DNA of 33,617 bases from positions 1 to 33,617 of the forward strand of contig JAITBL010000159.1 in assembly GCA_031283575.1 (NCBI GenBank), written 5' to 3'. The notes under the pieces are model-generated. The model saw only the letters and a program-made list of their open reading frames with translations, did not search any database and was not told where the DNA came from. The position numbers and the translations under genes are program-made. This DNA comes from Treponema sp. (lineage in GTDB: Bacteria > Spirochaetota > Spirochaetia > Treponematales > Breznakiellaceae). Shown piece by piece: positions 4,135 through 33,600 of this stretch; position 1 is the first letter of the stretch; each line of letters opens with the position of its first letter.

Positions 4135-5415
4135 TCATTCGGACGGTTTGTTCCCGCTTTTTCCTTTGGAAATTTTTGCCAGCGCGCCGGCGACCAGATC
4201 GTTGCGCGCGGCGGCTACGGCGTCGGGGTGTATGGCGGAGATCGGTTCCCTGCCCGCCCCCGCGCCGGTAACTATCGAGACATGGCCCGCCGGATAATGG
4301 GTAAGGGTTTCGGCAAAAGGCTCGAAGAGGGCCTCGAAGTTGTCGATAAGCCATGCGCGCCGCGCGGCGCTTCCTTCGGGAAAACTTTTACCGGACGCGG
4401 CTTTCATCGTTTTTAAGGTCACTTCAAGCTGCTCCATTTCCGCCCTGGCAACTTCAAACCAGGACGAGACTTCGGCCTTGGCGTTGAGCACCGCCTTGTC
4501 CCTGGCGGCCAGCGCGGGAGTAAGTATCTCGGCCCTGTAACGGTTGCGGATCAACTCTATGTTCTGCTTTTCCGCCTCAAGCTGGGCGGTAACGCCGGAC
4601 ACGCAGGCGCGGGCGTTGGCCGCTTCCTGTTCCACACCGACTTTTTGGCGCTGGATTTCTTCGGCAAGCTTTACCCGCACTTCGGCTTTAAGGCGTTCAA
4701 GTTCGTTCTTCAAATTTTTTACTTCGGTTTCGCCGCGGCGCGCTTCGGCCTGTTCCGCGGCCGAGGCTTTTGCTTCGGCCTGCGCTTCACGCGCGCGGGT
4801 CTCGGCGCTGGCCGACTGAATGCGTTTAAGCAGGGCAATATAGAGGTCGGGCTCTTCCACGCCGGGAAGCCGGTGATCGTCGACGTCAGCAATGTTCATC
4901 GTGGTAATTTCAAGGCCTATGTTTTCGAGATCGTGTTTACAGACGTTGATCATCTTGGTAACAAGAATGTCCTTGTCTTTCATTACCTGTTCGGGGGTCA
5001 TGCTGGCTATCGAATCGCGGAGGTGGCCTTCGATGATGTCGCCCGCGATCTTGGCAAGGTTCTGCCGGTCCGCGGCAAGATCGAGAATGCGGGTAACCGC
5101 GTGGCATCGTCCCGCTTCGTTACTGGCGATGGCGAAAGAAACGGTGGCCTTGACGTTAAGGGGAACAATGCCCGCGGCAATGGCCGAATCGACCATGACC
5201 TCGATGGTGATCGGGGTTAAGTCAAATTTGCTAAAACGCTGAACCAGGGGAATGATAAAAGCCCTGCCCCCCGAAAAAGTTCTGAATCCCTTGGGCTTTC
5301 CCGAACCGGTAACTACGCCCAGTTCGTTGCCCCCGACTATCTTCATGTTGGTAAGAAGCTGAATGATGATGGCGATTCCGACAAGTCCCCCGAGCGCTGC
5401 GGCAAAGACGATCAT
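4135..5415 (-). CDS. SPFH/band-7 (flotillin-like) protein, second of a paralogous pair
   Basis: N-terminal TM, SPFH-like domain, long Ala/Glu-rich coiled coil (RAREAQAEAKASAAEQAEARRGE); ATGA overlap with the upstream gene. Confidence 0.8.
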   Translation of the reverse strand: MIVFAAALGGLVGIAIIIQLLTNMKIVGGNELGVVTGSGKPKGFRTFSGGRAFIIPLVQRFSKFDLTPITIEVMVDSAIAAGIVPLNVKATVSFAIASNEAGRCHAVTRILDLAADRQNLAKIAGDIIEGHLRDSIASMTPEQVMKDKDILVTKMINVCKHDLENIGLEITTMNIADVDDHRLPGVEEPDLYIALLKRIQSASAETRAREAQAEAKASAAEQAEARRGETEVKNLKNELERLKAEVRVKLAEEIQRQKVGVEQEAANARACVSGVTAQLEAEKQNIELIRNRYRAEILTPALAARDKAVLNAKAEVSSWFEVARAEMEQLEVTLKTMKAASGKSFPEGSAARRAWLIDNFEALFEPFAETLTHYPAGHVSIVTGAGAGREPISAIHPDAVAAARNDLVAGALAKISKGKSGNKPSE

Positions 5416-6737
5416 TTTACGCCTCCTTCGGCTGCGGCGGGCATGATTAAACTTTTTACATCAACGCCAAAAGCATCCGCAAAGGTTTTAAGAAAATCGG
5501 CAAAAGCGCGGGGCCCGCGGTTTACCGCGCCGCTAAAACCTTCTTCATCGTCCATGACAATATAGTTGTCAACTTTTGTGTTTCCCGCGGCCTTCATATA
5601 TTTTTTGTACAACAACGGAAGCTTTTGCTGAAAAAACATAACCGCCGAAGCGTCGTCTCCGTATTTCGCCAAAAGTTCCGCCTTGGATTTTAAAAGCTCG
5701 TTTCGCGCCGAGCGGGTTATCGCCATCGCTTCCTTTTCGCCTTCGGCAATGATCCGCGCTTCTTCTTCGCGGACGGCGGCCCCAAGCGTCACGGCGCTCT
5801 GATTTTTAAGTTTTTGAAGTTCCACCAGTCTTGCCTGCACCGAAGCCCCGCCCGAATTGGCCGCCTGGGCTATGGCCTGATCGGCCTTGAGCGAAGCTTC
5901 GTTGATAAGCCCCGCCGACTCACGGCGATACACTTCAAGTTCCTGCCGCGCCGCGATAATCGCCTCGTCGGCTTTGTTCTTTGCCACCTCGATACGCTTG
6001 TGGGCGTCGCTTTCGGCCTGTTCCGCGATAGCGTGAAGGCGCGATTCTTCGATCTCAACCTGGCGGCGTTTTTCGGCCAGGGTCTTTTGCGCGAGGTTGG
6101 CGATATAGTTCGAAGTGTCCCAAATTTTTTGCAGTGACACCGACACTACTTTCATCCCAAACGAGCGAAGATCCGAGTTGATGTCGGCAAGCAGCTCCGC
6201 CCTGAACTGGGCCCGCTCGCCAAGATTGCCGTCGTCGTTATCGCCCGCGTCTTCCATGCCGATTGCCTGAAGCGGCGTCGCCTTGTTAAGGGCGCCGCGA
6301 AAATTCCCCACAAGCGTCTGCTGGACCTGGTCGTGAATCTGCCGGGTGTCTTTGCCCATGAGCCGCTCGACGGCGCTGTAGAGCATGGCTTCGTCGTCGT
6401 CGTCAATACAAACGCAGGCGGTAGCGTCGGCGCCCACGGTGATGCCGTTGGCGCTGTTGACCCCTTCGACCCGCACATTGATGGGGAATACGCCGAGGTC
6501 CAGGGCGCTGATGGCCTGGAAGTAGGGAATCACGACGGTCCGCCCGCGGTCCACGGTAAAGCCGAAACTGCGGCCGCCGCGGCGGGCTTTACGGCCGGTA
6601 ACCACGAGGATACGGTCGGGCAGGGCCACATGGATGATCGATTTTAAAAGCGCGATAAGAATGATAAACGCCGCTATCCCCAGGCATCCAAAAAAGAAAC
6701 CCTGGGAACTGTGCCAAAAATCCGCAAGCATAACCAC
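5412..6737 (-). CDS. SPFH/band-7 (flotillin-like) protein, first of a paralogous pair
   Basis: N-terminal TM, RILVVTGRKARRGGRSFGFTVDRGRTVVIPYFQ, coiled-coil C-terminal half. Confidence 0.85.
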   Translation of the reverse strand: MVMLADFWHSSQGFFFGCLGIAAFIILIALLKSIIHVALPDRILVVTGRKARRGGRSFGFTVDRGRTVVIPYFQAISALDLGVFPINVRVEGVNSANGITVGADATACVCIDDDDEAMLYSAVERLMGKDTRQIHDQVQQTLVGNFRGALNKATPLQAIGMEDAGDNDDGNLGERAQFRAELLADINSDLRSFGMKVVSVSLQKIWDTSNYIANLAQKTLAEKRRQVEIEESRLHAIAEQAESDAHKRIEVAKNKADEAIIAARQELEVYRRESAGLINEASLKADQAIAQAANSGGASVQARLVELQKLKNQSAVTLGAAVREEEARIIAEGEKEAMAITRSARNELLKSKAELLAKYGDDASAVMFFQQKLPLLYKKYMKAAGNTKVDNYIVMDDEEGFSGAVNRGPRAFADFLKTFADAFGVDVKSLIMPAAAEGGVK

Positions 6738-6771: not shown

Positions 6772-6800
6772 ACTATACCCCATAGATTGGTATTTGTCAG
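6772..6800 (-). promoter_or_regulatory. Predicted sigma70-type promoter for the SPFH pair
   Basis: CTGACA - 17 bp - TATAGT on the minus strand (tgtcag 6795-6800, actata 6772-6777). Confidence 0.65.
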
Positions 6801-6875: not shown

Positions 6876-8093
6876 CTACAAAGCCTTAAAAATTTGCCCC
6901 AGCGGCAGTGTAAGAAACTCGCGGTAACTTAAACCGCTTTCACCGACGAGGAGAGTCTTTCCGGCGGGAAAGTGTTTTTTAAAAAGCACGAGGTTTTCGG
7001 GGTTCATTTTACCGGGGACGCTTTTTACCTCCAGAGCGAGCAGGTCCTTGCCCCATTTAAGTACAAAATCCACTTCGGTATTTTTTTCCCGCCAGTAATA
7101 CAGCGCGGCGCCGGGGTTGGCGTTCACCTGATTGATAAGGTACGCGCCGACGGCGCTTTCCACATGGCGGCCCCATTTTGCCGAATCAATGAAGCCGTCT
7201 TCAAATGTTTCGCTCTGTACCGCTGAAAAAAGCGCCGTGTTGTGTACTAAAAATTTGGGGCTGGAAAGTTTTACCCGCAGCGGCTTTGCGCTGTACTGGT
7301 TAAGACCCGCAACAAGACCCGCCTGATCCAACAGGGTCGTGTAACGCGCAAGGGTGGTGGTGTTTCCCGCATCGGCAAGCTGTCCCAGCATTTTATTGTA
7401 CGAAAGTATTTGGGCGCTGTAACTGACGGCAAGATCGAAAAGCTGCCGCAACAGCGCAGGTTTGTTAATCTGCTCAAGCATAAATATGTCCCGGTTAAGG
7501 GAAGGCTCAATAATGGAATTAACGACATAGTTCTTGAAACGGTCCTCTTCACTCACCAAAGCCGCCGCGCCCGGGTAACCGCCAAACCATACATACTGTT
7601 CGGGGGTAAAATTAAAAGCCGCCTTCATCTCCGGTAAAGACCAGTGCCCCATAAACAGAAGTTCGAAACGCCCCAGCAGCGATTCCGAAAGCCCCTGTTG
7701 CAGCAGGAGCCGCGAGGAACCGAGGATAATCAGTTTGAGGGGAAATTTGGCGGCGGTGTCGGCATCCCAATTTTTTTTGACACATTCGCTCCATGCGTTA
7801 ATTTTTTGAATTTCGTCAATAACAAGGAGCCCTTCTTTTGCCTTTTTAAGGCGTATCTCCGTCCTGGCGTTGTCCCAGATCGTGTCCAGCCAATCACTGC
7901 CGACGGTAATCGCCTCTTCCGCCGAATAGAAATAGGCCGGCGAGGTCCCATTCTTTGCAATTTCTTCCATTAGCTGCCTGACTATCGTGGTTTTTCCCAC
8001 CTGCCGGGGACCGGCGATAACCTGAATAAAAGTCCTTTTCCCCGAAATCCGCTTTTTGAGGGTTTCCAGTATGGGCCGCTTATACGTTTTTAT
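6876..8093 (-). CDS. AAA ATPase with DUF4143-like C-terminal domain; likely start is a non-canonical ATA at 8093
   Basis: Walker A GPRQVGKTT is only complete if translation starts upstream of the ORF-track GTG at 8000; Walker B-like LLVIDEIQK; C-terminal EVDFVLKWGKDLLALEVKS typical of DUF4143. AAAAGGAG RBS 5 nt before ATA AAA ACG TAT AAG CGG CCC ATA CTG GAA. Confidence 0.8.
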   Translation of the reverse strand: MKTYKRPILETLKKRISGKRTFIQVIAGPRQVGKTTIVRQLMEEIAKNGTSPAYFYSAEEAITVGSDWLDTIWDNARTEIRLKKAKEGLLVIDEIQKINAWSECVKKNWDADTAAKFPLKLIILGSSRLLLQQGLSESLLGRFELLFMGHWSLPEMKAAFNFTPEQYVWFGGYPGAAALVSEEDRFKNYVVNSIIEPSLNRDIFMLEQINKPALLRQLFDLAVSYSAQILSYNKMLGQLADAGNTTTLARYTTLLDQAGLVAGLNQYSAKPLRVKLSSPKFLVHNTALFSAVQSETFEDGFIDSAKWGRHVESAVGAYLINQVNANPGAALYYWREKNTEVDFVLKWGKDLLALEVKSVPGKMNPENLVLFKKHFPAGKTLLVGESGLSYREFLTLPLGQIFKAL

Positions 8094-8105
8094 GACCGCT
8101 CCTTT

Positions 8106-8227
8106 TACTCAGTGCATTGAGTATTTTTACTCAGTGCATTGAGTATTTTTACTCAGTGCATTGAGTATTTTTACTCAGTACATTGAGTACTTTTACTCAG
8201 TATACTGAGTAAAAGTACTCAATGCAA
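8106..8227. repeat. Phased 22-bp dyad (iteron-like) array
   Basis: TACTCA-N6-TGAGTA dyads at 8106, 8128, 8150, 8172, 8194 and a left half-site at 8216; exact 22-bp phasing; perfect 44-bp palindrome 8181-8224. Confidence 0.95.
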
Positions 8228-8270: not shown

Positions 8271-8948
8271 TTACTCGATCATATCTACCCAGTAAACATC
8301 GTCATCAAACTCGACGATGCGCACACGGCTTCCTTTTGCCAGGGACTGACTTTTGTCCTTTGAACGGACATAGATTTCGACTTCCCTGCCGTATTGCCAT
8401 TGCCTGACGGCTGCTTTTGAAATAGCCCCCGGCGAAAGGGGAAGGAGCAATTCCGCCTTTTCCATTAAAAGCTCGCCGGGTTTTATGGAAGAATCAAGAT
8501 CGCGGCGGATGAATTTTCGGAGGAACCGCGCGAATACCGCGATTGCCGTACCCACGCCGCCCGCCCAGGCAAGGCTCGCCGCCGGCGCAAGCCCCGTAAA
8601 AAGGCCGAAGAGCCCCATAGGCCCCGCTCCCAGCGAAAAGTACACCAGCGTACGAAACAAGCCTATGATCCCCATAACGGCCCGTACGCCGCCGTCTCGG
8701 TTTACGGGGCTCAGGTAGGAACCGTGATGGCTTTCCGCGCCGTCATCAGGGGCGCCGTCGTATGCCTCCGTATCGTGATCACCGCTGTGATCGGCGCCGC
8801 TGTCGCCGCCGTGATCGGCGCCCGCGTCGTCGCCACTGCCGCTGTCGTCCTGGGAAGCGGCGTGTTCCATGACGCCGAGAAAGTCGATAACGGTAACGCC
8901 CGCCCCGAATACGGCAAGCGCCGTATAAAGGACGTAGAGGTTTCCCAT
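8271..8948 (-). CDS. NfeD-like membrane protein with C-terminal OB-fold-like domain and Asp/His-rich insert
   Basis: N-terminal TM, D/H-rich segment, further TMs, C-terminal GREVEIYVRSKDKSQSLAKGSRVRIVEFDDDVYWVDMIE. Confidence 0.65.
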   Translation of the reverse strand: MGNLYVLYTALAVFGAGVTVIDFLGVMEHAASQDDSGSGDDAGADHGGDSGADHSGDHDTEAYDGAPDDGAESHHGSYLSPVNRDGGVRAVMGIIGLFRTLVYFSLGAGPMGLFGLFTGLAPAASLAWAGGVGTAIAVFARFLRKFIRRDLDSSIKPGELLMEKAELLLPLSPGAISKAAVRQWQYGREVEIYVRSKDKSQSLAKGSRVRIVEFDDDVYWVDMIE

Positions 8949-31105: not shown

Positions 31106-32098
31106 CTACTGCTTTCCGCCGATTGACGAACGCATATCGGTGTCGGCCTGAACATTTTTAAGCCGGTAATAATCCATAACGCCCAGGTGGCCGTTCTTGA
31201 AGGCCTCGGAAATGGCAAGCGGTATCTGGGCTTCGGCAAGCACGACCTTGGCGCGGTTTTCCTGAACCAGGGCGAGCATTTCCTGCTCCTGGGCCTGGGC
31301 GGCGGCGCGGCGTTTTTCCGCTTCCGCCTGAAAGCGGCGCTTGTCCGCTTCCGCCTGATCCGCCTGAAGCTTGGCGCCGATATTCGCGCCCACGTCGATG
31401 TCGGCTATATCTATTGAAAGAATCTCGAACGCCGTCCCCGCGTCAAGGCCCTTGGAGAGCACCGTCCGCGAAATCGTGTCGGGGTTTTCCAGCACCGACT
31501 TGTAAGATTCCGAAGAACCGATAGTGGTGACAATGCCTTCGCCGACACGGGCGATAATCGTTTCTTCGGTTGCGCCGCCGACGAGCCGTTCAATGTTGGC
31601 CCGCACGGTAACCCGCGCCTTGACCTGGAGCTGAATGCCGTCCTTCGCAACGGCGTCAATGGTCGTTTTGCCCTTGGAAGTGTCGGGACAATCGATCACC
31701 TTGGGGTTTACACTGGTCCGCACCGCGTCCAGCACGTCGCGTCCCGCAAGGTCGATGGCGGCGGCCCGCTGAAACGGAAGCGGAATGTTCGCCTTGTTTG
31801 CCGCCACCAGGGCGCGGCTTACCTTCATGACATCGCCCCGCGCAAGGAAGTGGGTTTCCAGCAGGTCGGAAGAAACTTCGATTCCGGCTTTGGAAAGCAT
31901 GATCCGCGAATCGACAATGACCCCCTCTTTTACATGCCGCAGCCACATGCCGATGAGCCGCCCCAATCCTACGTGCGCGCCCGAAAGCAGCGCCCTGAAC
32001 CAGAGCCCGAAGAAACGAAAAAAGAGCATCAGGAAACCGATGCCGATTATGGCGATAATGACAATACCGATAAGAATTAAAACTCCAACACTCATCAT
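31106..32098 (-). CDS. floA: Flotillin-like FloA (YqfA family)
   Basis: [109 protein letters not shown]. Confidence 0.93.
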
Positions 32099-33600
32099 AC
32101 ACTCCTTACAAAAATATTATTTCCCTGAATTTTCACTACTTTGATTTCGCGGCCCGCCTCAATAAAAGAGGCGTCGGCTTCGACCTGATAATTTTCGCCG
32201 TCAATTTCCGCCTTGCCGATGGGACGGAGCACGGTAACGGCCCGTCCGGTTTTTCCCGCAAGCGTCCGGTAATCCGACTCGACGCCGCCGTCTTCTTTCC
32301 AGCCGCCGCCTTCGCTGGCGCTCTGCCCGATCTGCGTTTTTAACATAATCGGATCGAAGAGATGGGTTTTGGGACCCAGCAGCGCGATCATCGCGATTCC
32401 GATAATCGCCGCGAAAAGTCCCACGGCGACCACGATGGTGTTGCGGCCCATGAGCGACCACTCCCAGTCAAAACGCGGAATGATAAAATCCTGCATAGAA
32501 AGAACAAGGGAAAGACCGATGATCACAATTCCCGAAATACCGGCGACGCCGAAGCCCGGCAGGATAAAAATTTCCACGGCAAGAAGGCCCACGCCGAGTA
32601 TAAAGAGGATCAGCTCCAGGGAGTCCACGCGGCCCAGCAAAAAGCTGGAGCCAAAGACCAGAAGAAAGGCAAGTATCGCCGCCGTGCCGGGAATGCCGAA
32701 ACCAGGGCTCTGGATTTCAAGAAACACCATAACCAGACCGATGAGGATGAGCAGGCCCTGTACGGGACCGGAGACGAGAAAGGAGATGACCGAGTCCGCG
32801 GCGCCGGGGCTGCTCTCTTCCAGTACGACGGCGTTATCCAGACCGGCCAAAAGTTCTTCGCGGTCATTGGCAAGCCCCCGCGAAAGGCCGTAACGGAACG
32901 CTTCGCCCGCGGTAAGCGAGAGCAGTTTACCCGTGGGGCTGATTATCGCAACCCGCTTAATGTCGGGCTTCGGATCGCTTTTTTCAAGGCGTTCCATCTC
33001 CTGCAGGGTAAGTATGCGCGTAACGCCGTCTACGCTTGTTTCCCACAGTTCCACGTCGTAATCCACCATGGCCAGCGCGATGCCGGTGGGGTAACCGTTT
33101 TTTTCCGCAAGGGCGGCGATTTGTGAACGCACCGCCGCGACGGTTTTTTCGCCGGTGCCTTCGGTCGTACCGTCGGCGCCTATCGTAACCGGCGCGGCCG
33201 CGCCCATGGAGGTGCCTTCGGCCATGTAAATTTCAGCGCAGGAAAGGGCGATGAGGGCGCCCGCCGACCAGCTTACTCCCATGGAAGATTCGCTGTTCCT
33301 CACCCAGGCCACCGTGACGGTGTCTTTAAGCGACATGATAAAACTCGTGATCTGCAGGGCCGAATCAACACGCCCCCCAAAAGTATCGATTTCGAAGATA
33401 ATATAGGAAGCTTTTTGTTCCAGCGCGTTCCGCGCCTCGCGGCGCACAAAAGTTACCATCGAGGGCTCAATATCACCCTGAATGGGAATGATCCAGGCGG
33501 TGGGCGCGTCCTTGACCGGCGCGGCAACGGATTCGGCGGGCGCCTGCGCGGACAGCAAAACGGATACAAAAAAAAGCAGGCACAGCGGGATCTTCCTCAT
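32095..33600 (-). CDS. NfeD family membrane-bound serine protease (ClpP-class, long form)
   Basis: Signal peptide; [73 protein letters not shown]-terminal NfeD region. Confidence 0.93.

Follow-up and report, generated by a model that had tools for sequence, protein, structure and literature searches.

A phased array of 22-bp dyads, probably an autoregulatory operator, precedes a PDC-S01 ATPase gene in Treponema

Toxin-antitoxin and restriction-modification control proteins have autoregulatory operators. An array of palindromes in the 33,617-nt stretch of Treponema sp. DNA analysed here (the window) resembles these operators in being palindromic, in covering both the promoter and the leader of a compact gene of accessory or defensive function and, presumably, in being bound by the product of that gene. 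As tandem intergenic palindromes, the repeats also recall REP/BIME and other dispersed palindromic repeats, from which the array differs in being confined, with few exceptions, to a single locus per genome and in being tied to one gene family. The adjacent gene encodes an ATPase that is a full-length member of the PADLOC PDC-S01 candidates (residues 5-402 match PDLC04791 with 525 bits). PDC-S01 reportedly ranks fourth by frequency among the 'defence' systems of prokaryotes, and validation is pending for most phage-defence candidates (PMC12988326). By its sequence match the ATPase is thus a member of PDC-S01, a very common but unvalidated candidate phage-defence gene. A literature search covering open journal papers returned no operator or regulation for PDC-S01/DUF4143 and no mechanism for PDC-S01.

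The array consists of five full dyads and a half-site (Table 1). Tandem Repeats Finder assigns it a period of 22 with 97% matches. TACTCA-N6-TGAGTA, allowing up to two mismatches, has six matches in the window against 0.31 expected, and none of 100 shuffles reached six. The 2.39-Mb genome, a MAG of the termite-gut Treponema type to judge by its nearest named relatives, has no exact dyads besides the five in the array; at up to two mismatches the dyad is found at 33 places, as compared with 17 for the reversed control. An earlier note on this DNA had described the dyads and the left half-site at exact 22-bp spacing, the central hexamers GTGCAT (three times), GTACAT and GTATAC, and a gene-proximal unit running into the ribosome-binding site, and all of this holds: on the minus strand the proximal dyad reads into the Shine-Dalgarno sequence (TGAGTAAAAGGAG), with AGGAG at the end of the array. 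Across 47 units from the ATPase clade the consensus is TACTCA-RT-NN-AY-TGAGTA, with T8 and A11 in the loop of the dyad conserved; judged from this consensus, the half-site is about 8 bp long and the central hexamer is not free. The distal hexamer, GTATAC, differs because the distal unit holds the -10 box. A CRISPR array is ruled out by the 22-bp head-to-tail units, the near-constant linkers and the lack of unique spacers, and a REP/BIME or other dispersed repeat by the restriction of exact dyads to one genome locus. Elsewhere in the window, an intergenic 109-bp unit is present in 2.5 tandem copies with 93% matches (1977-2243).

Table 1. Coordinates of the array, the predicted promoter and the surrounding genes in the window
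Feature	Position	Strand	Remarks
Probable operator array	8106..8227	-	five TACTCA-N6-TGAGTA dyads and a half-site; conserved upstream of orthologs
Full dyads	8106-8123, 8128-8145, 8150-8167, 8172-8189, 8194-8211		22-bp phase
Half-site TACTCA	8216-8221		in 22-bp phase with the five dyads
Predicted -10 box TATACT	8199..8204	-	inside distal dyad, register +7 as in seven orthologs
Candidate -35 TTGCAT	8222..8227	-	17 bp from -10; weak, 3/6 matches
Shine-Dalgarno AGGAG	8099..8103	-	directly after proximal dyad
AAA_14/DUF4143 ATPase gene, PADLOC PDC-S01 (PDLC04791)	6876..8093	-	405 codons
Walker A GPRQVGKTT	7986..8012	-	G28, R30, Q31 and G33-T36 invariant in 21 orthologs
Walker B region VIDEIQK	7803..7829	-	D93, E94 and K97 invariant in 21 orthologs
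Winged helix-turn-helix, residues 212-283	7245..7460	-	predicted DNA-binding part
PD-(D/E)XK-type core E340-V-D342...E355-V-K357-S	7020..7094	-	E340, D342, E355 and K357 invariant in 21 orthologs
NfeD-like gene, upstream of ATPase gene	8271..8948	-	NfeD-like by our reading; no Pfam match
SPFH/Band_7 gene, downstream of ATPase gene	5412..6737	-	own promoter-like site at 6772-6800

The dyad symmetry lies over the core promoter of the ATPase gene, as predicted from sequence, and the array covers the -10 box and continues as far as the Shine-Dalgarno sequence. The -10 hexamer sits at dyad offset +7 not only in the window but also in Collinsella and in six members of a clade with a 21-bp period, most of which have TTGACA or a close variant 16-17 bp upstream of it. 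TTGACA stands at the -35 place in several orthologs, and in three close orthologs the array starts with a degenerate dyad that TATACT overlaps. The candidate -35 of the window was not recovered by a stricter promoter scan of this DNA.

The ATPase matches Pfam AAA_14 and DUF4143 above the cut-offs. An AlphaFold model (pLDDT 87.1, pTM 0.87) predicts three parts, an AAA domain, a winged helix (approximately residues 212-283) and a PD-(D/E)XK-like end, the domain and winged-helix assignments being our reading of the secondary structure of the model. Motif invariance (Table 1) refers to an alignment of 21 orthologs that includes the ATPase of the window; the recognition helix of the predicted winged helix, D-A-G-N-T..L..Y..LL, is almost invariant among orthologs. 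The DUF4143 and PD-(D/E)XK assignments that had been proposed from the translation are confirmed by Pfam, the invariant motifs and the predicted structure. Fold matches in the PDB include Orc1/Cdc6 (2qby), ORC, Sso1545 (2fna) and Avs4, all with low TM-scores, and some of the Orc1/Cdc6 structures are DNA-bound; searching the PDB by sequence gave no relative. None of the start codons ATG, GTG and TTG precedes the P-loop in the gene, and the next standard start lies inside the P-loop. The apparent start is an ATA (8093-8091) that aligns with the ATG of the orthologs and is preceded by a good Shine-Dalgarno sequence, and this copy may be poorly expressed owing to the ATA start.

A search of 394 genomes of the order found the exact 28-bp array in 16 (reversed control, 0) and relatives of the ATPase in 25. 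Eleven of the 16 array-bearing genomes also have the ATPase (Fisher p 7e-12), including one (G015) in which array and gene lie on different contig ends, a split that we read as an assembly break. Two of the other five keep a clear C-terminal remnant of the ATPase after the array (E 1.6e-10 and 1.9e-9) and one keeps a weak C-terminal remnant. In two Treponema genomes, G150 and G340, clean arrays precede a phosphatase-like gene, and neither the neighbourhood nor a genome search yielded an ATPase; at these loci (L041:1450-1610 and L038:1480-1545) the arrays adjoin an XRE-type regulator gene as well as the phosphatase-like gene. In the upstream regions of the orthologs, the array stands directly before almost every ATPase gene, with about one to five full units per ortholog. 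The earlier note had named arrays scattered without the ATPase, or missing upstream of its orthologs, as findings that would speak against a link between the two, and neither is what these genomes contain.

The association extends beyond the order. In a tree of 85 family members the dyad is found in 23 of the 25 members of one clade with 100/100 support, the exceptions being L077 and L273, and in 0 of the 60 others (Fisher p 9e-19; two state changes on the tree). According to plasmid-collection records, on which the cross-phylum evidence rests, this clade includes Collinsella (Actinomycetota), Bacteroides finegoldii (Bacteroidota) and Thermus oshimai (Deinococcota), at 42-49% identity; the ATPase gene is preceded by two 22-bp units in Collinsella, by a degenerate array in B. 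finegoldii, and by a variant dyad, TACTAG-N6-CTAGTA, with a half-site in T. oshimai. Units follow one another every 22 bp in most orthologs and every 21 bp in one sister clade, in either case close to two turns of the helix. On these comparisons, the array is conserved with the ATPase clade, not with the host or the locus.

Other branches of the family carry palindromes of their own. A strong inverted repeat lies just upstream of 66 of 83 family ATPase genes, as compared with 28 of 124 other genes from the same loci, a control count that is too high, since some of the control genes diverge from the same palindrome. The palindrome GGGATAAT-N17-ATTATCCC is present in all eight members of one ATPase clade, GAGATTT-N13-AAATCTC in 3/3 of another and GTATAAT-N17-ATTATAC in 3/3 of a third. 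Paralogs within one genome (G044; L071, L093, L115 and L139) have TACTCA-, GGGATAAT-, CGACTAAT- and ATTATAAT-type sites, each matching the clade of its ATPase. The second DUF4143 gene of the genome to which the window belongs (L113; G000:C149, about 1300-1490) also has short upstream dyads, of another sequence.

In two relatives, whose SPFH proteins are 76-80% identical, the SPFH gene directly follows the NfeD-like gene; in the window the array and the ATPase gene lie between them. Array and gene thus appear to form one unit inserted into a conserved operon, the array going with the ATPase rather than with the operon of the host. A toxin-antitoxin module was rejected, as there is no partner gene and the neighbours are the NfeD-like and SPFH genes of the conserved operon. 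Translations of positions 31106-33600 (minus strand) reveal a second SPFH/NfeD-like pair in the window.

We conclude that the array probably serves the adjacent ATPase gene alone, as a multi-copy operator to which the ATPase binds so as to repress its own promoter. An autoregulatory operator had been proposed in the earlier note; this reading is well supported by the clade association across phyla, the overlap with the promoter, the predicted winged helix and the lack of further exact sites in the genome, and the ATPase is suggested as the binder by clade-specific co-occurrence and by the winged helix-turn-helix in the model. An ATPase dimer would bind each dyad, or an oligomer the whole array, via the winged helix, and would thereby repress its own promoter, repression rather than activation being suggested by position alone. 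Cooperative filling of the phased sites could sharpen the switch, ATP or a phage signal may release the ATPase from the array, and the nuclease-like domain would be the effector. Against the operator stand the two clade members without a standard dyad, the weak -35 in the window, the possibly poor expression of the ATPase copy there, and the clean arrays without ATPase in G150 and G340, which something else might read.

A search of IMG/VR recovered the 22-bp array from at least 120 contigs and the 21-bp form from 6; the reversed pattern gave 0. The array-bearing viral loci examined yielded no ATPase, and a search over the full length of 24 longer viral contigs, with one exact site each, yielded no DUF4143. 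Among the contigs listed, 111 of 120 arrays lie outside open frames of at least 100 codons, and the flanks form 18 clusters, one of which comprises 93 contigs. In this largest cluster the site is often situated within an extended non-coding gap close to terminase genes; for one such contig, the terminases matched best those of Flavobacterium and Bacteroides phages, at ~35% identity. In L161 (1072-1892) and related freshwater phages the non-coding gap runs from a probable small-terminase to a large-terminase gene, and gaps of this type resemble a mosaic of several different short palindromes, the TACTCA array among them. A few viral contigs have the array directly before a Shine-Dalgarno sequence and an open frame; in L153, L187 and L226 the Shine-Dalgarno sequence is that of a probable tail-fibre-like gene. 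The viral dyads keep the T8 and A11 preference of the ATPase-clade dyads. Named phages searched for the array gave only partial, chance-level matches.

These viral arrays are possible decoys or targets. A general decoy rule gains no support from the palindromes of two other clades: GGGATAAT-N17-ATTATCCC is present in 9 viral contigs and GGAGATTT-N13-AAATCTCC in 19, both near what we roughly expect by chance, and the viral loci with either yielded no ATPase. An arms race, in which PDC-S01 ATPases would recognise clade-specific phased palindromes and repress themselves by occupying their own array, and phage copies would serve as decoys that titrate the ATPase or as sites for its detection of phages, is a tentative and rather doubtful idea.

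Three other readings of the array have to be weighed. The array lies largely within a predicted leader that folds at -42.5 kcal/mol (z -8.2), and it abuts the Shine-Dalgarno sequence, as would suit hairpins in the 5' leader that control translation or stability. We consider such hairpins, the alternative raised in the earlier note, very unlikely. Stable folding is expected of any tandem palindrome; the stem changes over the 47 units comprise 14 one-sided and 0 compensatory changes, 10 of them breaking a pair, a pattern devoid of the compensatory base-pair changes of a structured RNA leader; and the motif overlaps the -10 box, with loop bases T8 and A11 conserved. An Rfam search returned no family at threshold, and sub-threshold miRNA-type matches were attributed to palindromicity. 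A separate host transcription factor, acting on the ATPase gene by binding to the array, would account for the clean arrays of the two genomes in which no ATPase was found, but is quite unlikely, given that the array is the only exact site in the genome, that the motif tracks the ATPase clade across phyla and that no regulator gene common to the loci read was seen. One shared host regulator is also hard to reconcile with the G044 paralogs because these carry different, clade-matching palindromes, which fit a cis-encoded binder.

In the remaining reading the array would be mainly an assembly or target platform for the ATPase-nuclease, as for Orc1/Cdc6 on ORB, with regulation secondary and the phage copies serving as recognition sites or decoys. 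The AAA and winged-helix fold resembles Orc1/Cdc6, there are several phased sites, the nuclease-like core is intact, and the array recurs in the viral contigs with no ATPase in the sequence searched. However, the core promoter and the Shine-Dalgarno sequence are where a repressor has to sit, a single palindrome is all that many family members have, and a nuclease active against its own gene would have to be restrained, of which there is no evident sign. We regard a platform as unlikely.

If the array is the autoregulatory operator of the ATPase gene, a cognate operator provides a predicted DNA target, an inducer reporter and a clade-wise pairing of proteins with sites, and the phage copies make the decoy or target hypothesis testable. 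Among described systems, archaeal Orc1/Cdc6 with its ORB repeats, the fold match 2qby included, resembles the locus in combining an AAA and winged-helix protein with repeated dyads beside its own gene. In contrast to Orc1/Cdc6, for which TM-scores are low (about 0.33), the ATPase has an extra PD-(D/E)XK-like domain, and nothing points to a replication origin. The locus differs from toxin-antitoxin and restriction-modification operators in that a single ATPase gene is proposed to supply regulator and effector in one product, and in that the sites form a phased array of up to five units whose sequence changes with the ATPase clade.
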